Positions 22,690 to 33,626 of a stretch of 36,270 nt of DNA are shown one piece after another. Positions within the stretch are counted from its first letter, which is position 1, and each line of letters begins with the position of its first letter. The notes beneath the pieces were generated by a model. That model saw only the letters and a list, made by a program, of their open reading frames with translations. It did no database searches and was not told where the DNA came from. The stretch comes from Hydrogenophilales bacterium 12-61-10. GTDB taxonomy: Bacteria > Pseudomonadota > Gammaproteobacteria > Burkholderiales > Thiobacillaceae. The DNA lies in NCBI GenBank assembly GCA_002279795.1, contig NCCT01000022.1:1-36270 (forward strand), written 5' to 3'. Both the position numbers and the translations under genes were made by a program.

Positions 22690-23254
22690 ACGGCCACGCA
22701 TCGCCGCAGTCATTCTGGCCGGCGGCCTCGGGCGGCGAATGGGGGGCGTCGATAAAGGCCTGATCGAATACCGGGGCCGCCCGCTGATTGAATGGGCGCT
22801 CGACACGCTGGTGCAGCAAGCGGATTCGCTCGTCATCAGCGCCAACCGCAACCTCGAACGCTACGCCGCCTACGGCCATCGCGTGCTGCCCGACACCCTG
22901 CCCGACTTTCCCGGCCCGCTGGCCGGCGTGCTGGCCGCGCTGGAATCAGTGATGGCCGACTGGCTGCTGGTCACGCCATGCGACACCCCACATCTGCCGC
23001 CCGACTTCGCCGCCCGCCTGCTGGAGGTGGCGCGGCAAAACGATGTGCCGCTCGCGGTGGCGGCGGACGCCACGCGCAGCCATCACAGCAGTTTCATTGT
23101 GCGCACCGACCAGCGCGACAACCTGGCCGCATTCCTCGCACGCGGTGAACGCGCCGTGCGGCACTGGCAGGCGGGGCTGGCTTCGACAACGGTGGTATTC
23201 GATAACGCCTGCTTTGCCAACTTCAACCAGCCGCAGGATTTACCCAAGACTTAA
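22676..23254 (+). CDS. mobA: Molybdenum cofactor guanylyltransferase
   Basis: MobA links GMP from GTP to Mo-molybdopterin to make the bis-MGD cofactor of DMSO-reductase-family enzymes. 192 residues, normal length. Nucleotide-binding motif LAGGLGRRMGGVDKG lies at about 15-29, followed by GPLAGVLAAL and the TPCDTPHLP segment with the metal-binding Asp. The ATG at 22676 overlaps the glycosyltransferase end by 14 nt. Its stop codon overlaps that of the convergent glcF gene. No other molybdenum genes are nearby. Confidence 0.95.
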   Translation: MHDTERPRIAAVILAGGLGRRMGGVDKGLIEYRGRPLIEWALDTLVQQADSLVISANRNLERYAAYGHRVLPDTLPDFPGPLAGVLAALESVMADWLLVTPCDTPHLPPDFAARLLEVARQNDVPLAVAADATRSHHSSFIVRTDQRDNLAAFLARGERAVRHWQAGLASTTVVFDNACFANFNQPQDLPKT

Positions 23255-24537
23255 AACGCGGGCACGCCCAGCGCCTCGTCGAGCAATTCCACCCAGTGCC
23301 GCACCGGCGTCGACGTGCCCGATTGCAGGTGGGTGAGGCAGCCGATGTTGGCGGTGACGATCACTTCCGGCGCGTCGGCTTCGAGGTGGCCGAGCTTGCG
23401 GGTTTTGAGCTGGCCGGCGATCTCGGGTTGCAGGATCGAGTAGGTGCCGGCCGAGCCGCAGCAGAGGTTTTTTTCTGCCACGGCGGTGAGTTCGAAGCCC
23501 GCTTGCGTGAGCAGGGCCTCGACTCCGCCGCTGAGTTTTTGCCCGTGTTGCAGGGTGCAGGGGGGGTGGTAGGCGATTTTTTTGGGGAGCGATGAGCGGG
23601 TCCCGCAAGGGATACCGTCCCTGGCACTGCTTGTGCCAGGGACATAAGCGGTAAGCGGTTTGAGCGCTTCACGTTCATCCACCAGAATTTCAGAAATGTC
23701 TTTTGTGGCGGCGGAGATGCGGGCGGCCTTGTTCGCGTAGGCCGGGTCATCACGTAATTGCCAGCCGTAATCCTTGACCATGACGCCACAGCCGGAGGCG
23801 GTCATCACGATGGCTTCTGCGCCGGCGTCCAGATGCGGAATCCAGGCGTCGATGTTGCGGCGCATGGCGGAAAGGCCGTCGTCGTGGTCGTTGAGATGGT
23901 GCGCGACCGCGCCGCAGCAGCCCGCCTTGTCGGCGGCGATCAGCGAGATGCCGATGCGGTCGAGCACGCGTGCGGTGGCAGCGTTGATGTTGGGCTTGAG
24001 GCCGGGCTGGACGCAGCCCTGCAACACCAGCATGGTGCGTGCATGGCGCGGCGCGGGCCACTCGCCGGCGGCCTCGGGCGCGGGAATCTTGCTGCGCAGA
24101 ACGTTCGGCATCACGCCGCGCACGCTCTGGCCCATTTTCAATGCCGCATTGAACAGCGTCGGCGACAGCAGGCCGGTCTTGAGCGCGGCGCGGGTGGCGG
24201 TTTCACGCACGCCGCGGCCAACGGTTTGCTCGACCAGCGCACGGCCAAGGTCGATCAACTTGCCGTATTCCACGCCCGACGGGCAGGTGGTTTCGCAGTT
24301 GCGGCAGGTGAGGCAGCGGTCGAGATGGAGCTGGGTCTTGGCGGTCGGCGTCGCGCCTTCGAACACCTGCTTGATCAGGTAAATGCGGCCGCGCGGCGAA
24401 TCGAGTTCGTTGCCGAGCAGCTGATAGGTGGGGCAGGTGGCGAGGCAGAATCCGCAATGCACGCAGCTGCGCAGGATGCTTTCGGCGAGATCGCCCTCGG
24501 GGGTGTTGCGGAAGGAGTCGGCGAGTGTGGTTTGCAT
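23251..24537 (-). CDS. glcF: Glycolate oxidase iron-sulfur subunit GlcF, with an in-frame repeat insertion
   Basis: Electron-transfer subunit of membrane-associated glycolate dehydrogenase, which oxidises glycolate to glyoxylate and passes electrons to quinone. 428 residues. Two 4Fe-4S motifs at Cys25/28/31/35 (CVHCGFCLATCP) and Cys75/78/81/85 (CLTCRNCETTCP) are followed by two CCG domains (CCGAVAHH and CCGSAGTY). Residues about 299-315 (VPGTSSARDGIPCGTR) are encoded by a palindromic repeat and are probably a surface loop before KKIAYHPPCTLQHG. ATG at 24537, 11 nt after the VOC gene stop. Last gene of the glycolate operon. Confidence 0.95.
   Translation of the reverse strand: MQTTLADSFRNTPEGDLAESILRSCVHCGFCLATCPTYQLLGNELDSPRGRIYLIKQVFEGATPTAKTQLHLDRCLTCRNCETTCPSGVEYGKLIDLGRALVEQTVGRGVRETATRAALKTGLLSPTLFNAALKMGQSVRGVMPNVLRSKIPAPEAAGEWPAPRHARTMLVLQGCVQPGLKPNINAATARVLDRIGISLIAADKAGCCGAVAHHLNDHDDGLSAMRRNIDAWIPHLDAGAEAIVMTASGCGVMVKDYGWQLRDDPAYANKAARISAATKDISEILVDEREALKPLTAYVPGTSSARDGIPCGTRSSLPKKIAYHPPCTLQHGQKLSGGVEALLTQAGFELTAVAEKNLCCGSAGTYSILQPEIAGQLKTRKLGHLEADAPEVIVTANIGCLTHLQSGTSTPVRHWVELLDEALGVPAF
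23596..23643. repeat. Short palindromic repeat inside glcF
   Basis: Two adjacent palindromes, GCGGGTCCCGC (23596-23606) and GTCCCTGGCAC/GTGCCAGGGAC with a 5-nt loop (23617-23643), make a 48-bp unit, exactly 16 codons. It looks like a REP-type element inserted in glcF without breaking the frame. Exact ends are inferred from the protein discontinuity. Confidence 0.7.
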
Positions 24538-24548
24538 GGTGGTGCGAG

Positions 24549-24929
24549 TCAGAGCGGGTTCGAAAGTTCGATCAGGTTGCCATCGGGGTCGCGCACATAC
24601 ATCGACAGCAGCGGCCCCTGTGCGCCGGTGCGTTCGACCGGGCCCTGCTCGATGGCGACGCCCTGCGCGGCAAGCTGCTCGGCAATGTCGGCGAGCGGCG
24701 TACGCGCGATCAGACAGAGATCGACGGCGCCCGGCACCGGCTGCGCCGCCTTCGGCTCGAATTCGCGCCCGGCCTGATGCAGGTTGAGTTTGCAGCGGCC
24801 GAACACCAGCGCACGCCGGCCTGCGCCGAACACCTCCTCGCGCATGCCCAACACGCGCGTATAAAACGCCACGCTGGCGGGAATGTCGCGCACGGTCAGC
24901 ACCACATGATCGATGGCGTCGAGCTGCAT
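24549..24929 (-). CDS. VOC-superfamily (glyoxalase/dioxygenase-fold) protein
   Basis: A small VOC protein of 126 residues with the two beta-alpha-beta-beta-beta modules. Candidate metal ligands are His8 (IDHVVLTVRD), His near 51 (LNLHQAG) and the Glu of DPDGNLIELS near the end, so an active metal site is likely. The ATG overlaps the glcE stop (ATGA), so it is translationally coupled inside glcDEF, which normally lacks such a gene. Substrate unknown. Context suggests a small oxo-acid or its adduct: a glyoxalase-, epimerase- or isomerase-type reaction on a glyoxylate-derived compound is possible but unproven. Confidence 0.85.
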   Translation of the reverse strand: MQLDAIDHVVLTVRDIPASVAFYTRVLGMREEVFGAGRRALVFGRCKLNLHQAGREFEPKAAQPVPGAVDLCLIARTPLADIAEQLAAQGVAIEQGPVERTGAQGPLLSMYVRDPDGNLIELSNPL

Positions 24930-25993
24930 CAGAAGTCCGGGTACATCCGCCCGCGGTTGAGTATCCCCTTGGGGTCGAAGCGCTGCTTGAGGTTGCGATG
25001 CAAAACATGAAGCGCGGGCGCAAGCGGACTGAACACGCCGCCAGCCGGCGCCTTGCCGCGGAACAGGGTGGCGTGGCCGCCACAGCTTTTGGCGGCTTCG
25101 AACAGCGCGGCGGCTGGCAGGTCGCTCACCAGCCAGCGCACCGCGCCGCCCCACTCGATCCACTGCGCGTCGCCCAGCTTGAGCGGCGGCGTGGTGGACT
25201 TGACGGCCAGTCGCCACAGGCTGGCGGTCGATGCCGCCGGGCGCACGTCAAAAAACGGCGTTGCGTGGTCGCGCAGGCGCTGCCAGAACGACGCGGCGTC
25301 ATTCAGGGTTTCTCCTCCCAGCTTGACCTGTGCGGCGTGCACCGCCGAGGTCGCGCCCGACAGCCGCACCGTCAGCAACCCGGCATGCCAACTGGTACCT
25401 GAGAGCGGCAAGGGATGGCCGGCCATTCGGTTCATCTGTTCGATCGCGGCGGCTTCGTCGAGCTCGAATTGCAGCGTGGTTTCGGCTGCCGGCCGGGGTA
25501 GCACCTTGAGCGACGCTTCCGTAATCAGGCCAAGGGTGCCGAGCGCGCCGACCATCAGCCGCGACACATCGTAGCCGGCGACGTTCTTGATCACCTGGCC
25601 GCCGAAGCGCAGCGGCTGGCCGGTACCGTCGATGATGCGCACACCGAGCACGAAGTCGCGCGCGGAACCGGCATAGGGACGGCGCGGGCCGGACAGGCCG
25701 GCGGCGATGCAGCCGCCGAGGGTAGCGCTGCCGGCAAAGTGCGGCGGCTCGAACGCCAGCATCTGGTTCTGTTCAGTGAGCAGCGACTCGATGTCGGTGA
25801 GCGGGGTGCCGGCGCGCGCGGTCAGCACCAGTTCCTTCGGCTGATAATCGACCACGCCGCAAAACGCGCGCGCAGAGAGCACTTCGCCTTCGTCCGGATT
25901 GCCATAAAAGGTTTTGCTACCGCCACCCTGAATAATCAGCGGCGAGTCGTGTTCATAGGCTGCGCGGATGCGCTCGATCAGAGCTTTGGGCAT
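24929..25993 (-). CDS. glcE: Glycolate oxidase FAD-binding subunit GlcE
   Basis: 354-residue partner of GlcD. A PCMH-type FAD domain covers about residues 1-215 (LIIQGGGSKTFYG, the GTPLTDIESLL segment, GSATLGGCIAAGLSGPRRPYAGSARDFVLG). A shorter C-terminal domain with a terminal DPKGILNRGRMYPDF follows, typical of GlcE. The start is ATG 25993, sharing a base with the glcD stop (TGATG); the open frame upstream is inside glcD and is not the start. Its stop overlaps the VOC gene. Confidence 0.95.
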   Translation of the reverse strand: MPKALIERIRAAYEHDSPLIIQGGGSKTFYGNPDEGEVLSARAFCGVVDYQPKELVLTARAGTPLTDIESLLTEQNQMLAFEPPHFAGSATLGGCIAAGLSGPRRPYAGSARDFVLGVRIIDGTGQPLRFGGQVIKNVAGYDVSRLMVGALGTLGLITEASLKVLPRPAAETTLQFELDEAAAIEQMNRMAGHPLPLSGTSWHAGLLTVRLSGATSAVHAAQVKLGGETLNDAASFWQRLRDHATPFFDVRPAASTASLWRLAVKSTTPPLKLGDAQWIEWGGAVRWLVSDLPAAALFEAAKSCGGHATLFRGKAPAGGVFSPLAPALHVLHRNLKQRFDPKGILNRGRMYPDF

Positions 25994-27447
25994 CAAAATC
26001 TCGGCAGTTCGGGATGCGGCAACTGGCCGCCGTGGATGTGCATCGCGCCCCACTCGGCGCAGCGGTGCAGTTCGGGCACGGCCTTGCCGGGATTGAGCAG
26101 GGTCTCGGGGTCGAACGCGGCTTTCACCTCATGGAAGCGCACCAGCTCCGGGGTGGAAAACTGCGCGCACATCTGGTTGATTTTCTCCAGGCCGACGCCG
26201 TGCTCGCCGGTGATGGTGCCGCCGACTTCGACGCACAGCTCCAGAATCCTGCCGCCGAAGGCTTCGGCCTTGTGCAGCTCGCCCGGCTGGTTGGCGTCGA
26301 ACAGGATCAGCGGGTGCAGGTTGCCGTCGCCGGCGTGGAATACGTTGGCGACGGCAAGACCGTATTCGATGCTCATTTCGCTGATGCGTTTAAGCACATG
26401 CGGCAACTGGCCGCGCGGAATGGTGCCGTCCATGCAGTAGTAGTCGGGCGCGAGTCGCCCCACCGCCGGGAACGCGGCCTTGCGGCCGGCCCAGAATTTG
26501 AGGCGCTGCTCTTCGCTGTCAGCGGTGCGAATTTCAGTGGCGCCGGAGGCGGTCAGCACTTCGCGCACGGTGAAGATGTCGTCCGACACTTCCTCGTTGA
26601 CGCCGTCGACTTCGCACAGCAACAACGCCTCGCAGTCGAGCGGATAGCCGGCGTGGACGAAGGCCTCGGCGGCCTGGATGGCAAGGCGGTCCATCATTTC
26701 CAGCCCGGCCGGAATCACCCCGGCGGCGATGATGTTGCCGACCGCCGCGCCGGCTTTGGCCACGTCGTCGAACGCCGCCAGCACCACCTGCGCGCGCTGC
26801 GGGCGTGGCAGCAGCTTGACCGTGACTTCGGTGATCACCGCGAGCATGCCTTCCGAACCGGTCATCAAGGCCAGCAGGTCGTAACCCGCCGAGTCCAGCG
26901 TGTCGCTGCCGATTTCAAGCAGCTCGCCGGCGATGGTCCAGGCGCGCAGCTTGAGGATGTTGTGCACGGTGAGGCCGTATTTGAGGCAGTGCACGCCGCC
27001 GGAGTTTTCCGCCACGTTGCCGCCGATCGAGCAGGCGATCTGCGACGACGGATCGGGCGCGTAGTACAGGCCATGTGCCGCAGCCGCCTCGGAAATGGCG
27101 AGATTGCGCACGCCCGGCTGCACGGTGGCGGTGCGTGCCAGTGGGTCAATGGCTTTGATCTGATTGAGCTTGGCCAGCACCAGCAGCACCGCGCCGTCGA
27201 TGGGCAGTGCGCCCGCTGCGAGACCGGTACCAGCGCCGCGCGCCACCACGGCGATTTTCTCGGCGTGGCACAGCTTGAGGATCGCCGTCACCTGCGCTTC
27301 GTTCTCCGGCAACACCACCACGTCGGGGATGTTGCGATAGGCCGACAGGCCATCGGACTCGAAGGGCATCAAATCCTCGCGCTCGTGCAGCACGCTGTGC
27401 GGCGGCAGCAGGCGGCGCAACTGGGAGAGAAAGGCGGGGCTGATCAT
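25993..27447 (-). CDS. glcD: Glycolate oxidase FAD-linked catalytic subunit GlcD
   Basis: 484 residues, normal length. The FAD PCMH domain (about 50-230) has VVARGAGTGLAAGALP and PSSQIACSIGGNVAENSGG. The FAD-oxidase C-terminal domain ends with GGTITGEHGVGLEK and NPGK. It oxidises glycolate (or D-lactate-like hydroxy acids) to the oxo acid; with GlcE and GlcF next door, glycolate is the best substrate call. ATG at 27447 lies 18 nt after the sugar-acid kinase stop. In autotrophs this complex removes 2-phosphoglycolate-derived glycolate made by RubisCO oxygenation. Confidence 0.96.
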   Translation of the reverse strand: MISPAFLSQLRRLLPPHSVLHEREDLMPFESDGLSAYRNIPDVVVLPENEAQVTAILKLCHAEKIAVVARGAGTGLAAGALPIDGAVLLVLAKLNQIKAIDPLARTATVQPGVRNLAISEAAAAHGLYYAPDPSSQIACSIGGNVAENSGGVHCLKYGLTVHNILKLRAWTIAGELLEIGSDTLDSAGYDLLALMTGSEGMLAVITEVTVKLLPRPQRAQVVLAAFDDVAKAGAAVGNIIAAGVIPAGLEMMDRLAIQAAEAFVHAGYPLDCEALLLCEVDGVNEEVSDDIFTVREVLTASGATEIRTADSEEQRLKFWAGRKAAFPAVGRLAPDYYCMDGTIPRGQLPHVLKRISEMSIEYGLAVANVFHAGDGNLHPLILFDANQPGELHKAEAFGGRILELCVEVGGTITGEHGVGLEKINQMCAQFSTPELVRFHEVKAAFDPETLLNPGKAVPELHRCAEWGAMHIHGGQLPHPELPRF

Positions 27448-27465
27448 GGCGGAGAGTCGGTTGAA

Positions 27466-28800
27466 TCAGGCCGCGAGTGTAGCCGGGCTGGCCGCCGCGT
27501 GCGAGGGTGCGAGCCGCCGGTATGCTTCGGCCAGCGCGTCGTCGCCGCCAACGTTGCCGGGGAAAATCACCACCGGCAGCTGCGGCAGGCGATGGTTGGC
27601 CGGCGTCTGCACCACGGTGACGCCGGGCAGGATCTGCCCCAGCACACGCGAGGCGGTGAGCGCGAGTCCGGTCGACAGCACGTCATTGGAGGTGATGCCG
27701 CCCTTGCTGATGAGAAAACCCAGCGTCGGCGGCAACTGTCGAACCACATCCATCAGCGTGCCCGACACCGCTTCGCCGAACGCCAGCCGCTCGGCGGTGC
27801 TGGCGAATTTCAGTTCGGCGCGGCTGGTGAACACCACCGGCGTAAGGCCGCGTGCATGCGCGTGCGCGATGCTGGCCGTCAGCGACGCCACCAGTTCTGC
27901 GCGGCCTGCGGGCAGGCGTGCGACGTCGAGCGGCAGACCGACCACGCCGCGCTGCTTCAGCAACACGCCCAGTTGCGCGGTGGTTTTGGCGACGTGCGAA
28001 CCGACGATGACCGCGCCGGCTTGTTGCCCGCGCACCAGCGAGGCGAACGCATCGGCCGCCACCGGCTGCGGCGGCAGTTTCGCCAGCGCGGTCAGCAGCG
28101 ACGCGGCGCTGCGAAACAGCAGCCGCTTGCCGCGTGCGGCAGCTTGCAGCACGGCGTCGGCAAACAGCCGGTAGTCGTCGGCGGTTTCGCCATCGACCAC
28201 GCCGATGGCGTTGCCCTGCAGCGCTGCCAGCCATTCGGCGGTGCCGCCGGCGCGCAGATCGTCAAGCGTCAGGCGGGCCACCATACTGGCGGCAACGCGG
28301 CCGCCGGTTTTTTCCGCCACGTACTCGGGCAAAAACGCCGTGCGGTAGCCGAATACCGAGTCGCGCGCGAATTCGGATTCATGCGTCGGCACCGGTTTGC
28401 CGTCGACCATTAAATAGTGCGTGCTGTCGCGCGTGATGCGGCCGCCCTCGAAGAACGCCGGGGTCAGCAAGGTCGCGTCGAAGGGGCCGAGCACGGCGTT
28501 CATCACGTCGGTTTCCACCGGGTAGTGGCCGCGCAGGGTCGAGTCCGAACGCGACACGAACAGCACCGGCCCGGCGTAGTCGGCGAGCGCGGCCTTGAGG
28601 TTGACGCACACCTCGCGCGTGATGTCGGCAGCGCGTTCCGCGTCCATGCCGCGCGTGTTGGTGAGGACGAAGAACAGCGGCGCGGCGTCGGCCAGCGCGG
28701 CCTTCAGCGTGGCGACATCCCAGCGCGTCAGCAGCAGGCAGGAATGCACCGTCTGCGAGCCGGTGGGGTCGTCGTCTAGAACGATGATTTTTGGGTTCAT
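27466..28800 (-). CDS. Four-carbon acid sugar kinase family protein (DUF1537)
   Basis: 444 residues. N-terminal substrate domain begins VLDDDPTGSQTVH (8-20), with the family segments SRSDSTLRGHYPVE and TPAFFEGGRITRDSTHY. The C-terminal nucleotide domain has VGSHVAKTTAQL, KGGITSND (366-373) and a final FPGNVGGDDAL. Characterised relatives (OtnK, DtnK) phosphorylate 3-oxo-tetronate or threonate/erythronate. No partner aldolase or dehydrogenase of those pathways is adjacent; instead the gene sits between a phosphoketolase-like gene and glcDEF. The start ATG 28800 follows a palindromic repeat. Substrate is likely a C4 sugar acid or a glyoxylate-derived acid; this is inference. Confidence 0.88.
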   Translation of the reverse strand: MNPKIIVLDDDPTGSQTVHSCLLLTRWDVATLKAALADAAPLFFVLTNTRGMDAERAADITREVCVNLKAALADYAGPVLFVSRSDSTLRGHYPVETDVMNAVLGPFDATLLTPAFFEGGRITRDSTHYLMVDGKPVPTHESEFARDSVFGYRTAFLPEYVAEKTGGRVAASMVARLTLDDLRAGGTAEWLAALQGNAIGVVDGETADDYRLFADAVLQAAARGKRLLFRSAASLLTALAKLPPQPVAADAFASLVRGQQAGAVIVGSHVAKTTAQLGVLLKQRGVVGLPLDVARLPAGRAELVASLTASIAHAHARGLTPVVFTSRAELKFASTAERLAFGEAVSGTLMDVVRQLPPTLGFLISKGGITSNDVLSTGLALTASRVLGQILPGVTVVQTPANHRLPQLPVVIFPGNVGGDDALAEAYRRLAPSHAAASPATLAA

Positions 28801-28818
28801 GGGAAAACCTTTTTTTGT

Positions 28819-28890
28819 CCGCGAAGTACGCGAAGGGTCGCGAAGAAAACCGTCGAGTTTTTCCTTCGCGTTTCTTCGCGTACTTCGCGG
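28819..28890. repeat. 72-bp palindromic repeat between the kinase and phosphoketolase-like genes
   Basis: Perfect 17-bp outer arms CCGCGAAGTACGCGAAG (28819-28835) and its complement (28874-28890) enclose a partly self-complementary centre with further CGCGAAG/CTTCGCG units. It fills most of the only sizeable gap of the operon. It could form a strong mRNA hairpin and set differential expression of the genes on each side. It is not followed by a clear T run on the minus strand except the TTTTTT stretch near 28810 on the plus strand, so it is not called a terminator. Confidence 0.8.
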
Positions 28891-28901
28891 ATGAACAGTT
28901 T

Positions 28902-31127
28902 TTAAACCGCTGACCGCTCCAGCATCGCCAGCGCGCGCTCGTGCATCGCCTGCGCATTCATGCCGTTGAAGTCGAACAATTGCTGCGGGTTGGCGGTGGT
29001 CTCGCCGCGCTTCCAGCAGAACACATCGCGCTGCGCGGCCTGGCTGCGTAGCAGCACGGGTTCGAGCGGCGCCGACGGCCCGCCGGAGATGGCCAGCAGC
29101 ACATCGCCATGGAACATCGCCTTGAAGGCGTCGTCGGCCATGAAGCGGTCGTCGGGTTCCGACACACTGTCCCACAGCACGTCGGTCGGACGATACAGCC
29201 GGCGCGGGTTGACCACGGCGACGATGCGCGAGCCGATGCCGGCTTCGGCCAGTTTCTCTGCGGCGGCAAACACCGGTTGCAACACCAGGTCGCCGGTCAC
29301 CGCGAACACCACGGTGTGCGAACCGAGGCGTTCCTGCAACACCATCGCGCCGTCGTCGATCGCCTGCTCGCTTTGCGCCATGGTGGCGTGAATCGGCAGC
29401 GCCGATTTCGAGGCGGTGATGACGATGCCCTTGTTCTTTTGCTTCAGCGCCCAGGCGTAGCTGACCTGGATCATGTTGGCGTCGATCGGGAACAGCGGAT
29501 AGACGTTGCCGTTGCGCATCATCGCGGCGAAGTAGCTTTCGATCTCCGGGCGCTGGTGGGTCCAGCCGTTGCGACCCTGCTCCAGCGCGCCGGCGGTGAA
29601 CAGGCTCACCGTGGCAGGCGTCGGCCGGCGCAGTTCGGCCATCGCCTGCGTCACCGTCTGCCAGATCGGCAGGCCGTTGATGGCAAAGGATTCATAGCTG
29701 CACCACAGGCTGCGGCCGCCGAACAGCGAAACGCCGACCGCCAGACCGGCACAGGCATCTTCGTTGAGCGGCTCGTAGACCTGGCCGGACGGCCCTTGGA
29801 AATACAGGTCGTCGACGGTCGGGTGGCGGATCGTCAGCGCCTTGTTGATGTTGGCCATGCCCGAGGCTTCGTTGCCGTCGGCGTTGGTGACGACGAACAT
29901 GGGGTCGCGCTTGCCGACTTCGCCCACCACGTGGCCGAACGCGGTGGTCGGGATGTGGTTTTCGCCGACCGCGAATTCGTTCAGCGGCAGGCCGTCAAGG
30001 CTGGGCAACGCACGCACGGATTCGGTTACCGCGACGCGCGAAGCGGGGCCGCCGCCGGCATGACGGAAGTTTTCGCGGGTGATCTTCCAGGCGGCAACCG
30101 GCAATGCACGGCGCTGCAGGCCCGACTTCACCTCATCGGAATCGAGCGTGTGGTGCGGGTACAGGTTGTGCGACTTGGCGCCGGTCGCGTGCACGCCTGC
30201 GCCCTTCAGCTGCTTGACGATGAGGCAGGCGCGGCGGCCGTTCAGCGCGCTTTGCGCGGCGGCATCGGTCGCCTTCAGGATCGCCGCGGTAAAAGCCATG
30301 CGGGCGGCAAAGCCGAAGGTGGTCGAGTCGGTGTACACCGGTGCGTCGGGGGTGTCGGCGTATTCACGGGCGTCGACCAGATGCACTTCGTCGAAGCCGT
30401 GCGCGCGCCAGTAATCGGTCATGCGTGTGTTGTCCCACAGCGACACCATGCTGTGATGCTCCTGCGAATAGCCGTTCCACACCAGCACCGGCAGGTAGTT
30501 GGTGACGCCGGGGTAGGCGGTGGCGAAGTGCTGGAACGCGCTCATGATGTAGGGCTCGCCGAGGCCGCCGTCGCCGATGGTCACCGGGAACAGCTTGTCG
30601 CGGTTGAGATAGGCGCCGGCCATGGCGAAATGCTGACCCTGGCCGAGCGGGCCGGCGGGTGCGAGCAGACCGGGAATCGCGCCGGACAGGTGGCCGAGCA
30701 GGCCATGGCGCTCACGGAAACGCGTGCGCATCTGCGCAACCGTGGTGATGCCCATGTCTTCCAGCGAGGTATCGAGGAACATCGCCGAATAAAAACCCGG
30801 CGCGTGATGGCCGACCTCGGTCACCAGGTTGCGGTGGCCCAAGAGATGCAGCGCGGCGACCGCGTCGGCGCTGGAGGCGAAACCGCCGGGGTGGCCCGAC
30901 GACTTGCTGCCGGTCACCTGCAGCGTCAGGTAGCGCAGCGCGTCGGCCGCCAGCAGCGTCTGGTAGACAGCAGCCTCGCTGGTGGCGTCCGGCAGCGCGG
31001 GCTGGTTGGGGCCCAGCAACGGGGCGGCGCCGAGGCGGTCGATTTCCGGGTAGCTGTCGGCAAAATACTGAATGCCCTCGCAGAAGGCGGGAAGATTCTC
31101 GGGGGTGGAGTGCATCTGGGCGCTCAT
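28902..31127 (-). CDS. Phosphoketolase-like (XFP family) thiamine-diphosphate enzyme, divergent
   Basis: 741 residues. ThDP site: GHPGG at 78-82, GDG at 185-187 with Asn218 about 30 residues on, and a middle Pyr-domain with EPLNEDACAG (candidate catalytic Glu). The segments CSYESFAIN and NGWTHQRPEIESYFAAM align by eye with SYEAF and NGFSHQDPGF of X5P/F6P phosphoketolases, so it belongs to that family rather than to classical transketolase. It is about 50 residues shorter than typical phosphoketolases and many active-site blocks differ (for example GQGQHFAMAGAYL for GGELGYSLSHAYG). First gene of the glycolate operon, ATG 31127 preceded by GAAAGG. True substrate is unknown. Confidence 0.75.
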   Translation of the reverse strand: MSAQMHSTPENLPAFCEGIQYFADSYPEIDRLGAAPLLGPNQPALPDATSEAAVYQTLLAADALRYLTLQVTGSKSSGHPGGFASSADAVAALHLLGHRNLVTEVGHHAPGFYSAMFLDTSLEDMGITTVAQMRTRFRERHGLLGHLSGAIPGLLAPAGPLGQGQHFAMAGAYLNRDKLFPVTIGDGGLGEPYIMSAFQHFATAYPGVTNYLPVLVWNGYSQEHHSMVSLWDNTRMTDYWRAHGFDEVHLVDAREYADTPDAPVYTDSTTFGFAARMAFTAAILKATDAAAQSALNGRRACLIVKQLKGAGVHATGAKSHNLYPHHTLDSDEVKSGLQRRALPVAAWKITRENFRHAGGGPASRVAVTESVRALPSLDGLPLNEFAVGENHIPTTAFGHVVGEVGKRDPMFVVTNADGNEASGMANINKALTIRHPTVDDLYFQGPSGQVYEPLNEDACAGLAVGVSLFGGRSLWCSYESFAINGLPIWQTVTQAMAELRRPTPATVSLFTAGALEQGRNGWTHQRPEIESYFAAMMRNGNVYPLFPIDANMIQVSYAWALKQKNKGIVITASKSALPIHATMAQSEQAIDDGAMVLQERLGSHTVVFAVTGDLVLQPVFAAAEKLAEAGIGSRIVAVVNPRRLYRPTDVLWDSVSEPDDRFMADDAFKAMFHGDVLLAISGGPSAPLEPVLLRSQAAQRDVFCWKRGETTANPQQLFDFNGMNAQAMHERALAMLERSAV

Positions 31128-31135
31128 GGCTAGCC

Positions 31136-31171
31136 TTTCACAATATGAAAATGTTTCACATGATGTGAAAC
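31136..31171. promoter_or_regulatory. Probable IclR operator pair in the intergenic region
   Basis: Site A (31136-31150) is TTTCACAATATGAAA. Site B (31153-31171) is the 19-bp palindrome GTTTCACATGATGTGAAAC with perfect 9-bp arms. Both lie within 45 nt upstream of the phosphoketolase-like start, where a bound regulator would control the catabolic operon. Confidence 0.7.
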
Positions 31172-31223
31172 GATGGGTGCATTGAAGCAGAAAGCCCTAC
31201 ACTTTTCACATCGCGCAATAAAT

Positions 31224-31238
31224 TTTCACTCTATGAAA
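31224..31238. promoter_or_regulatory. Probable autoregulatory IclR operator over the iclR start codon
   Basis: TTTCACTCTATGAAA has the same TTTCA-N5-TGAAA form as site A at 31136 and covers the ATG of the regulator gene. Occupancy would block its own expression. A further half-site TTTCACATC lies at 31204. Confidence 0.6.
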
Positions 31239-31997
31239 AACATCAGTTCGTCGATTCAGGTCATCGACCGCGCCATGGTGCTGGTCGGCCTCCTCTCGCG
31301 CGCCCCCGGCCCGCTCAATCTCACGCGTCTGGCGGAGCAGGCCGGCCTGCACACCGCAAGCGCACACCGCATCCTCGGCGCCTTGATGGCGCACGGCCTG
31401 GTCGAAAAAACCGGCGCCGGCGAATACGACCTGGGCGTGCGCTGGCTGGAAGTCGGCAATCGCCTGCGTGCGCGGCTCAATATCCGCCAGGTGGCGATGC
31501 CGGCGATGCAGCAACTGGCCGAAGCGACCGGCGAAACCGTCAACCTCATCGTGCGGCGCGGCGACGAAGCGGTCTACGTCGAGCGCGTGTCGGGCGGGCA
31601 AACCATGATCCAGGTGGTGCAGGTGGTCGGCGCGCACGCGCCGCTGCACGTCACGGCGGTCGGCAAGATATTCCTTTCCGAAGACAGCGCCAGCGGCGTG
31701 ATGGGCTACGCCGAGCGCACCGGCCTGCCGGCGTATACATCCAACACCCTGACCACGCTGGAGCGCCTGGATGCCGAACTGGCCGCCATTCGCCAGGCGC
31801 AACTGGCCTATGACCGCGAGGAGGCCGAGCTGGGCGTGGCCTGCATCGGCGCGCCGATCCGCGATGCCGAAGGCAAGCTGGTGGCCGGCCTGTCGATCTC
31901 GGCGCCGGCCGACCGCCACAAGCCGGGCTGGGTCGAGGCGCTCAAAAAGGCCGCCGCGCAGACCGGCACCGCGCTGGGCTATCTGGTCGATGCCTGA
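31233..31997 (+). CDS. IclR-family transcriptional regulator of the glycolate operon
   Basis: 254 residues. N-terminal winged helix-turn-helix (about 8-68, recognition region GLHTASAHRILGALMAHGLV) and C-terminal IclR effector domain (about 80-250, with ATGETVNLIVRRGDEAVYVERV and the VGACIGAPIRD-like segment VACIGAPIRDAEG). The start is ATG 31233 (MKNISSSIQVIDRAM); the open frame upstream crosses the operators and lacks similarity. Divergent from the phosphoketolase-like gene with three palindromes between, so it likely controls that operon and itself. Effector is probably glycolate, glyoxylate or a downstream intermediate; this is inferred. Confidence 0.9.
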   Translation: MKNISSSIQVIDRAMVLVGLLSRAPGPLNLTRLAEQAGLHTASAHRILGALMAHGLVEKTGAGEYDLGVRWLEVGNRLRARLNIRQVAMPAMQQLAEATGETVNLIVRRGDEAVYVERVSGGQTMIQVVQVVGAHAPLHVTAVGKIFLSEDSASGVMGYAERTGLPAYTSNTLTTLERLDAELAAIRQAQLAYDREEAELGVACIGAPIRDAEGKLVAGLSISAPADRHKPGWVEALKKAAAQTGTALGYLVDA

Positions 31998-32060
31998 ATT
32001 TAGCGCGGCCGCGTCGATAAACCCTTGCCGCACGCAGGCTTTCTTGGCAAGGTGGCGGCA

Positions 32061-33086
32061 ATGACGCCCAACCTGCTTCCCCTGTCGAACCTCCGCTACC
32101 AAATTGCCGCCTGGCTGCTGATGGCCGCCGCCCTGTTGTTGATCCTGAAGCTCCACCTGCTGCCGAGTTTGCTGGCCGGACTGCTGGTGGTGCAGCTGGT
32201 GCATCTGCTGGCACCGCGTTTTGTGATCGGCCGCCTCAATCACACCTGGGCCAAGGTGCTGGTGGTGTCGCTGATCACGCTGATCGTGCTGGGCGTGCTG
32301 GGCGGATTCACCGCCGGCGTCATCCTCTACTTGCGCGGCGAGGGCGGCGTGGCTGGTTTGCTGGGACGGATGGCGGAAATCATCGAAAACTCGCGCGCGC
32401 TGCTGCCGCCATGGGCCGCAGCGTGGCTGCCGCAGGGCGACGACTCGGCGATCCGTGCCGGACTGGTCGAATGGCTGCGCACCCACGCGCTGGAAATTCG
32501 CCAATACAGCGGCAACGCCGGCCGCGCGGTGCTGCACTTCATGATCGGCCTCATCATCGGCAGCTTCATTGCACTGCGCGAAGCCAGCCCCCAACAAACG
32601 CTGGCGCCGCTGGCATCCGCCCTGTGCGAACGGGTGAACCGCCTGAGCGACGCCTTCCACCGCGTGGTGTTCGCGCAGGTGCGCATTTCGGCGCTGAACG
32701 CGCTGTTGACCGGGGTTTACCTGTTCGTGGTGCTGCCCTCATTCGGTGTGCATCTACCGTTCACCAAAACCATGATCGTGGTGACTTTCCTCGTCGGGCT
32801 GCTGCCGGTCATCGGCAACCTGATTTCCAACTCCGTCATCGTCATCATTTCGCTGTCGCACTCGCTGCAGGTGGCCGCCGGCTCGCTGGCCTTCCTGGTC
32901 ATCATCCACAAGCTCGAATATTTCGTGAATGCCCGTATCATCGGCGAGCAGATCAAGGCGCGCGCCTGGGAGTTGCTGATCGCCATGCTGGTGATGGAAG
33001 CAGCGTTCGGTCTGCAGGGCGTCATCGCCGCGCCGATCATCTACGCGTATATCAAAAAAGAACTATCCGACCGGGAGCTTATTTAA
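32061..33086 (+). CDS. AI-2E family (PerM-type) membrane transporter
   Basis: 341 residues with about seven to eight membrane segments. The family pattern is visible: paired N-terminal helices (about 12-50), a helix at 63-88, a soluble middle part, then VVLPSFGVHLPFTKTMIVVTFLVGLLPVIGNLISN and a C-terminal EYFVNARIIGEQIKARAWELLIAMLVMEAAFGLQGVIAAPIIYAY. Substrates are not settled in this family; export of small molecules or Na+/H+ exchange has been proposed for members. The ATG 32061 has a weak GGTGG upstream. Its stop directly abuts gcvR, suggesting one transcript. Confidence 0.85.
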   Translation: MTPNLLPLSNLRYQIAAWLLMAAALLLILKLHLLPSLLAGLLVVQLVHLLAPRFVIGRLNHTWAKVLVVSLITLIVLGVLGGFTAGVILYLRGEGGVAGLLGRMAEIIENSRALLPPWAAAWLPQGDDSAIRAGLVEWLRTHALEIRQYSGNAGRAVLHFMIGLIIGSFIALREASPQQTLAPLASALCERVNRLSDAFHRVVFAQVRISALNALLTGVYLFVVLPSFGVHLPFTKTMIVVTFLVGLLPVIGNLISNSVIVIISLSHSLQVAAGSLAFLVIIHKLEYFVNARIIGEQIKARAWELLIAMLVMEAAFGLQGVIAAPIIYAYIKKELSDRELI

Positions 33087-33626
33087 ATGTCGAACGACAC
33101 CGAATCATTGGTCATCACCGCCAGCGGCGAAGACAAAATTGGCCTGGTGGAAGGCTTTACCCGCCGCATCAGCGAATCCGGCTGCAACATCGAGGAATCG
33201 CGCATGGCGGTTCTGGGCGGCCGCTTCGCCCTGCTGATGCGGATTACCGGGAGCTGGGACGCGCTGGCCAAGCTGGAATCCCGGCTGGTCGGCGTCGGCG
33301 AGGAACTGGGGCTGTCCATCATCCAGCAACGCACCCGCCTCACCCGCGCCGACAAGCCGCTGATTCCCTACACCGTAGAAGTCGCCGCGCTCGACCAGCC
33401 GGGCATCGTCAACAGCCTCGCCAACTTCTTCGCCAAGCTGCACATCAACATCGAGGCACTCGAAACCGAGACCTATCCCGCGCCGCACACCGGCGCGCCG
33501 ATGTTTGCCGTGCACATGACGCTGGGCATTCCCGCCGATGCCCACATCGCCACCCTGCGCGGCGATTTCCTCGATTATTGCGACGACCAGAACCTCGACG
33601 CGACCTTCGAACCGATCCGCATGTAA
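33087..33626 (+). CDS. gcvR: GcvR-like protein with two ACT domains
   Basis: 179 residues forming two ACT domains: about 5-85 (ESLVITASGEDKIGLVEGFTRRISESGCNIEESRM) and about 90-175 (YTVEVAALDQPGIVNSLANFFAKLHINIEALE). This matches GcvR, which in enterics binds glycine and restrains GcvA at the glycine cleavage operon. No gcvA or gcvTHP is in the window, so the target is unknown. It starts immediately after the permease stop. A link with the nearby glycolate genes is attractive because glycine cleavage is part of photorespiratory salvage, but only proximity supports it. Confidence 0.83.
   Translation: MSNDTESLVITASGEDKIGLVEGFTRRISESGCNIEESRMAVLGGRFALLMRITGSWDALAKLESRLVGVGEELGLSIIQQRTRLTRADKPLIPYTVEVAALDQPGIVNSLANFFAKLHINIEALETETYPAPHTGAPMFAVHMTLGIPADAHIATLRGDFLDYCDDQNLDATFEPIRM

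Follow-up and report, generated by a model that had tools for sequence, protein, structure and literature searches.

The window analyzed here, the whole stretch of 36,270 nucleotides of contig NCCT01000022.1 from Hydrogenophilales bacterium 12-61-10, is one contig in a 3.0 Mb draft genome whose host would be a sulfur oxidizer of the Thiobacillus group. It carries an operon that joins a phosphoketolase-like, thiamine diphosphate-dependent enzyme (the ThDP enzyme) and a DUF1537 kinase to the glycolate dehydrogenase GlcDEF. Six genes share the minus strand and an IclR gene is divergent on the plus strand, and both the open reading frames (ORFs) and the families are as the initial annotation had described them:

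28902..31127, minus strand: phosphoketolase-like ThDP enzyme, 741 aa, opening the operon (Pfam XFP 39.7 bits, XFP_N 25.4 bits)
27466..28800, minus strand: DUF1537 (four-carbon acid sugar) kinase, 444 aa, its start taken as an ATG within a longer open frame (SBD_N 178 bits, NBD_C 123 bits)
25993..27447, minus strand: GlcD, glycolate dehydrogenase FAD subunit (PRK11230 830 bits, cut-off 897; TIGR00387 542 bits, cut-off 567.9)
24929..26053, minus strand: GlcE, glycolate dehydrogenase FAD subunit (PRK11282 516 bits, cut-off 284)
approximately 24549..24929, minus strand: VOC/glyoxalase-fold protein (PF00903 49.7 bits)
23251..24537, minus strand: GlcF, glycolate dehydrogenase iron-sulfur subunit (PRK11274 661 bits, cut-off 333)
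31173..31997, plus strand: IclR-type regulator, divergent (PF01614, PF09339)

The ThDP and kinase genes are separated by 101 bp, the kinase and GlcD genes by 18 bp, and the IclR and ThDP genes by 45 bp. There is overlap between the frames of GlcD and GlcE, and GlcE and VOC touch or overlap according to the start chosen. All three subunits of glycolate dehydrogenase are found together, with GlcD scoring below both of its model cut-offs. The top NCBIfam model for the IclR protein is the regulator BhcR (172 bits, below the cut-off of 350).

Gene order was compared in 56 proteobacterial loci, namely the window and 55 fetched loci of our own choice (L144 and L217 lie on the same contig), leaving out L084, L085, L087 and L089, which were repeats or cut off, and genome G456, where the kinase gene is not beside the ThDP gene. 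In all 56 loci the kinase gene lies downstream of the ThDP gene on the same strand and within 1.4 kb, usually within 0.3 kb. Among the 24 loci that were fully flanked, having 9 kb or more of sequence downstream and 1.5 kb or more upstream, the kinase is present in 24, a divergent IclR gene in 22, GlcD and GlcE in 20 each and GlcF in 19, the Glc genes always on the same strand, and 14 of these loci have a ThDP protein only 63-73% identical to that of the window. The ThDP-kinase module is conserved far outside the window genome, as the initial annotation needed it to be. Chance is excluded by the operon order, which is preserved in further families and in a single genome from a different class. 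The VOC gene is present in only part of the Thiobacillus-group loci and is therefore not core to the module.

Searching 100 near relatives with the ThDP protein gave matches in 76 at E <= 0.001, many of them weak and to ordinary phosphoketolases or transketolases. Strong matches, as whole or partial copies with approximately 81-97% identity, were found in 39 of 55 genomes of the window's genus, and the gene is present at 64-74% identity in the neighbors G087, G058, G057 and G059. A draw from the proteobacterial class contained it in 33 of 369 genomes (E <= 1e-40), and a draw from the phylum in 3 of 398, two of which were already known while one (G589) belongs to another class. The scan of named relatives covered the best 80 of 516 confirmed relatives; the close ones among them are mostly Thiobacillus and Hydrogenophilales, and the 80 split into roughly 30 loci from proteobacteria (Thiobacillus, Sulfuriferula multivorans, Thiogranum and Chromatiaceae among others) and roughly 50 from cyanobacteria, the latter with 63-67% identity (Pseudanabaena, Nostoc, Anabaena, Calothrix, Microcoleus and Phormidium among others). 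With a profile search the ThDP gene was found as a single copy in 120 of 145 cyanobacterial genomes (partial in 2 of the 120), making it close to a core cyanobacterial gene. No match was obtained in the plasmid collection. A Thiobacillus-type operon with 90% identity also stands on a contig labelled Rhizobium sp. (L073), probably because a metagenome bin was given the wrong name.

Among proteobacteria, genomes with the ThDP gene have the kinase as well. DUF1537 genes are not universal, being present in 3 of 14 control genomes, one of which is a cyanobacterium. In the class draw the kinase was found in 33 of 33 ThDP-positive genomes (28 of the 29 loci L042-L070, the window, and G456, G306, G379 and G135) versus 0 of 45 ThDP-negative genomes that were hand-picked from 336 and of which 30 have Rubisco; the Fisher p of 9e-23 ignores kinship. 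In G456 the kinase is present, away from the ThDP gene. The named ThDP-positive cyanobacteria have a DUF1537 gene in 29 of 30 cases, the miss being the draft L138, and in the cyanobacterial draw the kinase occurs in 143 of 145 genomes, including 120 of the 120 with the ThDP gene; since nearly all cyanobacteria have it, co-occurrence alone (p 0.03) says little within that phylum. The two cyanobacterial genes are mostly apart, and in at least 10 of the 120 genomes they lie within approximately 1.1 kb on one strand. The cyanobacterial ThDP gene adjoins GlcF-like (L138), GlcE/GlcF-like (L110) and GlcE-like (L265) genes, and those that were scanned fall below the NCBIfam cut-offs (GlcF 323 and 329 of 333 bits; L265 GlcE 151 of 284).

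With respect to the hosts, Rubisco is present in 32 of the 33 ThDP-positive class genomes versus 144 of the 336 others (p 3e-10), the miss being the 86% complete G132, and the window genome has Rubisco as well. None of 50 ThDP-positive genomes has a glyoxylate carboligase (TIGR01504) above cut-off. This includes the whole window genome (best score 341 of 711 bits), extending what the initial annotation had said of the window only.

DUF1537 kinases are known to act on C4 sugar acids, 3-oxo-tetronate included. The window kinase has both Pfam domains and the fold of these enzymes, and shares them with the kinase of the OtnK/OtnC catabolism of C4 acids, reportedly the work of Zhang et al. 2016, from which the present system differs in that its kinase has glycolate dehydrogenase and the ThDP enzyme as partners; no OtnC or OtnI partner was seen in the clusters examined. 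The window kinase gave no NCBIfam match, be it to the D-threonate kinase model or to another named equivalog, and a relative from a small cyanobacterial genome reached 52.7 of 450 bits, short of the equivalog cut-off. Identity to solved DUF1537 proteins is about 17-24%, and of the PDB sequences none matched with the single sequence and three with a profile.

From what is observed, that is gene order, co-occurrence, hosts, fold and catalytic residues, we infer glyoxylate as the substrate, and likewise which compound donates the ketol unit, which one the kinase phosphorylates and how the following route ends. GlcDEF would oxidize Rubisco-derived glycolate to glyoxylate, and the ThDP enzyme would transfer a two-carbon ketol unit onto glyoxylate, giving 2,4-dihydroxy-3-oxobutanoate (3-oxo-tetronate). 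The DUF1537 kinase would phosphorylate C4 of this acid, and the phosphorylated beta-keto acid would lose CO2 to leave dihydroxyacetone phosphate, either spontaneously or by means of an unlinked enzyme. One ATP and one CO2 would be spent per glyoxylate, and two trioses would be gained from a pentose phosphate. We rank ketol transfer, as proposed in the initial annotation, first because its product is the very acid that serves as a known substrate of the kinase family. That the ThDP-kinase pair serves glycolate or glyoxylate salvage in some form we consider highly probable. The return of glyoxylate to sugar phosphates via 3-oxo-tetronate without carboligase is our best explanation as a whole, and we hold it with slightly less than even confidence, while the exact chemistry of ketol transfer, C4 phosphorylation and CO2 loss is put forward tentatively.

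Several observations weigh against the 3-oxo-tetronate route. Strong ThDP matches are missing from 16 of the 55 genomes of the window's genus, including G031, G033 and G038, which are 99-100% complete. The route would return half of the glyoxylate carbon, which is below the yield of the glycerate pathway. A carboligase above cut-off is found in just 1 of 30 Rubisco-positive, ThDP-negative genomes, so its absence is not special to genomes with the ThDP gene. Furthermore, no recurring decarboxylase gene was found near the clusters examined, in agreement with the initial annotation, which had found no clear gene for this step. The operon-internal gaps contain no decarboxylase gene; those of L094 and L092 hold a glutathione-S-transferase-type gene, and the ORFs in the gaps of L113, L144 and L145 look like antisense or non-coding frames. 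Neither the conserved neighbors nor the flanking ORFs searched against Pfam (98 out of 179 chosen, with 25 of the 98 matched families listed) showed a recurring OtnC-, OtnI- or PdxA-type gene in the matches listed, where a rare one could escape, and PdxA and class II aldolase were not searched genome-wide. The flanking ORFs gave two matches to class II fructose-bisphosphate aldolase, and L220 has, as a single case, an FAA-hydrolase-fold gene beside IclR.

The active site of the ThDP enzyme raises a further difficulty. Its Pfam scores exceed the gathering thresholds (22 bits for XFP, 23.7 for XFP_N), while it stays far below the NCBIfam phosphoketolase cut-off (top model 89.1 of 777 bits); no glyoxylate carboligase model was matched in the Pfam and NCBIfam scans. 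Phosphoketolase is nearest in both fold and sequence, and alignment with phosphoketolase and transketolase shows the ThDP-binding and catalytic residues to be retained, as is K574, which corresponds to phosphoketolase K605. PK_L278 was left out here for its wrong frame and PK_L280 because it is another kind of XFP-like protein, while L279 was trimmed. An arginine common to transketolase (R359) and phosphoketolase is replaced by T395, phosphoketolase R442 by N426 and transketolase H469 by A512, and R519 is a new invariant residue of the family; T395 and N426 were read from nine family rows of one alignment, and both columns are invariant among 25 aligned family sequences. We take the two replaced arginines to be those that hold the donor phosphate in transketolase and phosphoketolase. 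Judging from the alignment the ketose-phosphate pocket is partly lost, and with these arginines replaced, xylulose 5-phosphate or fructose 6-phosphate as donor is not a given. The glycolate-linked pathway of ThDP enzyme and kinase without glyoxylate carboligase that the initial annotation had proposed is supported, whereas the reaction proposed there is tentative. Another XFP-like protein of approximately 776 aa (L280, G051:C8:337000-342500), in a genome that also has a window-type enzyme, aligned neither with canonical phosphoketolase nor with the window ThDP family.

The retained residues and the nearest relatives would agree with a true phosphoketolase with relaxed binding, which supplies acetyl phosphate to a malate-synthase route consuming glyoxylate while the kinase acts on an unrelated C4 acid. 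It appears quite improbable to us, since this leaves the constant kinase partner unexplained, and since several ThDP-positive genomes also have separate homologs of phosphoketolase length. The ThDP enzyme, of 741 aa in the window, differs from phosphoketolase not only in the replaced arginines and R519 but also in its pairing with the DUF1537 kinase in the genomes tested, the draft L138 excepted. In addition, malate synthase is present in only 2% of 536 cyanobacteria according to excerpts of PMC7486775, in a phylum where the ThDP gene is common.

The phosphoketolase alternative could also draw on Sll0529 (Pkt2), the second phosphoketolase of Synechocystis, which we guess to be a member of the ThDP family and which, like it, is a divergent, uncharacterized phosphoketolase/transketolase-like cyanobacterial protein. 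PMC9034593 and PMC11257934 name it a phosphoketolase isoenzyme without reservation, whereas PMC7744508 and PMC4609045 treat this function as putative or still to be proven. A legend to a figure about low-carbon regulation in PMC7281370 lists it as a putative transketolase with unknown function, and the excerpts of these five papers report no kinase or glycolate link. Its clustering with fungal, algal and bacterial phosphoketolases (PMC7744508, in part) speaks against membership. If Sll0529 is a member, its weak response of 1.10-fold expression at ambient versus high CO2 (same excerpts) would also count against the 3-oxo-tetronate route, as would the finding that a double mutant without Sll0529 and slr0453 grew normally under photomixotrophic conditions (excerpts of PMC9034593), in that both argue against a strong need for the enzyme, or a strong induction of it, in Synechocystis. 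They left our weighing unchanged, because membership is only a guess and the mutant data concern photomixotrophic growth.

Genes found beside some clusters fit a different reading, in which the ThDP enzyme is a glyoxylate carboligase of a new, non-homologous kind that converts two glyoxylate to tartronate semialdehyde (or hydroxypyruvate) and CO2. Phosphoglycerate would then be reached by a reductase and glycerate kinase, or by the DUF1537 kinase with glycerate or hydroxypyruvate as its substrate. Such an enzyme would fill the carboligase gap of the 50 ThDP-positive genomes, and genes for tartronate-semialdehyde reductase (TSR) and/or glycerate kinase do occur beside or near a few clusters. 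The clusters of L032 and Sulfuriferula multivorans L088 contain a TSR (TIGR01505 380 and 376 bits, cut-off 340.75), and the gene order in L032 is TSR, hydroxyacid dehydrogenase, glycerate kinase, ThDP enzyme, kinase and GlcDEF, while L210 has a PF02595 glycerate kinase gene near the cluster; such genes count against the 3-oxo-tetronate route. TSR-type genes slightly below cut-off are present in the L113 and L145 clusters (336 and 315 bits), and in the cyanobacterium G480 a TSR directly follows the DUF1537 kinase. The initial remark that the window has neither TSR nor glycerate kinase holds for the whole genome as far as class I glycerate kinase PF02595 is concerned (class II and III were not searched), but a TSR-type gene lies on another contig, C64 (359.7 bits).

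Nevertheless we regard this carboligase reading as unlikely. TSR is above cut-off in only 11 of 53 ThDP-positive genomes (3 of 27 ThDP-negative), and there is no match at E <= 1e-50 in 25 of the 53 (15 of the 27); some TSR-type genes adjoin a gene of the methylmalonate-semialdehyde dehydrogenase type and may function in valine degradation. PF02595 is present in only 10 of 40 ThDP-positive proteobacteria (2 of 9 ThDP-negative), 2 of 15 ThDP-positive cyanobacteria and 0 of 16 ThDP-negative cyanobacteria. Decarboxylation of a 2-oxo acid is unusual in the fold of the ThDP enzyme, though not without precedent, being known in DXS. The older candidate carboligase of Synechocystis is presumably Sll1981. 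That protein is described in excerpts of PMC3699288 as a 2-oxoglutarate decarboxylase, which favors a new carboligase. On the other side, most cyanobacteria have a plant-type glycerate kinase according to excerpts of PMC2063504 (as data not shown), leaving little need for a second one in the 143 of 145 cyanobacteria with the DUF1537 kinase, and this also weakened the candidate explanation that the kinase is a plain glycerate kinase. The established glycerate pathway, outlined for Cupriavidus necator in excerpts of PMC7486775 (gcl-hyi-tsr-ttuD with glcDEF, the carboligase route being used there together with a malate cycle), shares with our clusters the glycolate dehydrogenase, the autotrophic host and, beside a few clusters, TSR; it differs in that glyoxylate carboligase is replaced, in ThDP-positive clusters, by a ThDP enzyme unrelated to it together with the DUF1537 kinase.

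The last difficulty for the 3-oxo-tetronate route comes from cyanobacteria without the ThDP gene, many of which have small genomes. The kinase is kept in 23 of 25 and is hence independent of the ThDP gene in that phylum. Sixteen such loci were compared, with one member per gene family annotated and the others assigned by similarity. The kinase lies between GlcF-like and GlcE-like genes in 6, and in 3 its neighbor is a gene for an FMN 2-hydroxyacid oxidase (PF01070) of possible lactate or glycolate oxidase function, so that a glycolate-oxidation-type gene is beside the kinase in 9 of the 16 and adjacent in none of the other 7. The kinase is thus linked with glycolate oxidation even where the ThDP enzyme is missing. 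An aldose-1-epimerase-like gene (PF01263 in the member scanned) is also near or beside the kinase in 13 ThDP-negative cyanobacterial loci (L248-L253 and L256-L262).

Retention of the kinase in small cyanobacterial genomes, the Rubisco hosts and the C4 acids taken to be the substrates of the kinase family would also suit a pair that clears other side products of Rubisco or the Calvin cycle (erythronate, 3-oxo-tetronate or carboxytetritol-type acids), where the ThDP enzyme works in reverse, removing the ketol unit of a C4 3-oxo acid to free glyoxylate, and GlcDEF also oxidizes 2-hydroxy acids. We give this only a slim chance, as glycolate is the simpler substrate in view of the linkage to genes of the glycolate-oxidation type that recurs in proteobacteria as well as in cyanobacteria, whether or not the latter have the ThDP gene.

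The kinases of the two groups differ in their active-site motifs. Loci of ThDP-positive genomes have SRSDSTLRGHYP and KGGITSN in 63 of 63 cases (SRSD / KGGITSN in short form), while ThDP-negative cyanobacteria have SRGDSTLRGH and KGGITT (SRGD / KGGITT) in 15 of 16 loci, a contrast that we count in favor of the proposed route. The sole exception, L263 (G970), has the motifs of the ThDP-positive type, and its ThDP gene may have been lost or left unassembled. Five aligned kinases of ThDP-negative cyanobacteria are 35-43% identical to the window kinase, compared with 58-66% for 18 other relatives. In the kinase tree, from which L216, L217, L144 and L177 were left out as no full kinase could be read, most ThDP-negative cyanobacteria fall in one region, with low support in places, which could reflect a single evolutionary event behind the motif switch, so that the p value of the motif comparison is an overstatement.

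Photorespiration limits carbon fixation, and bacterial routes serve as templates for engineered bypasses. The ThDP-kinase pair spans carbon-fixing bacteria from sulfur bacteria to cyanobacteria and points to an undescribed rescue of a waste product of Rubisco. If the pair metabolizes glyoxylate, most cyanobacteria would carry a salvage branch hidden by phosphoketolase annotation, and both the role of their divergent phosphoketolase-like proteins and the question of what fills the carboligase gap of these genomes would become directly testable. More tentatively still than the chemistry, we suggest that most cyanobacteria and many chemoautotrophs might possess a previously undescribed photorespiratory route, running through a re-purposed phosphoketolase and the DUF1537 kinase to triose phosphate, with neither nitrogen shuttling nor carboligase. 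In the open-access literature, a scope that excludes most subscription papers and preprints, we found nothing joining phosphoketolase, glycolate oxidase and DUF1537, or phosphoketolase-like proteins, glyoxylate and glycolate.

Downstream of the IclR gene the plus strand of the window encodes an AI-2E-type transporter (32025-33086) and a double-ACT protein (33087-33626). The latter, which we take to be GcvR-like, could regulate glycine cleavage, itself a photorespiratory step. In L220, L221 and L225 genes for TRAP transporters lie directly 3' of the kinase (a DctP-type protein with a Tat signal in L220, together with genes of permease type) and perhaps serve glycolate uptake. Finally, a small ComEA-like helix-hairpin-helix protein is encoded between the ThDP and kinase genes in L213 (8276-8557), L094 (12281-12562) and L214 (10651-10917).

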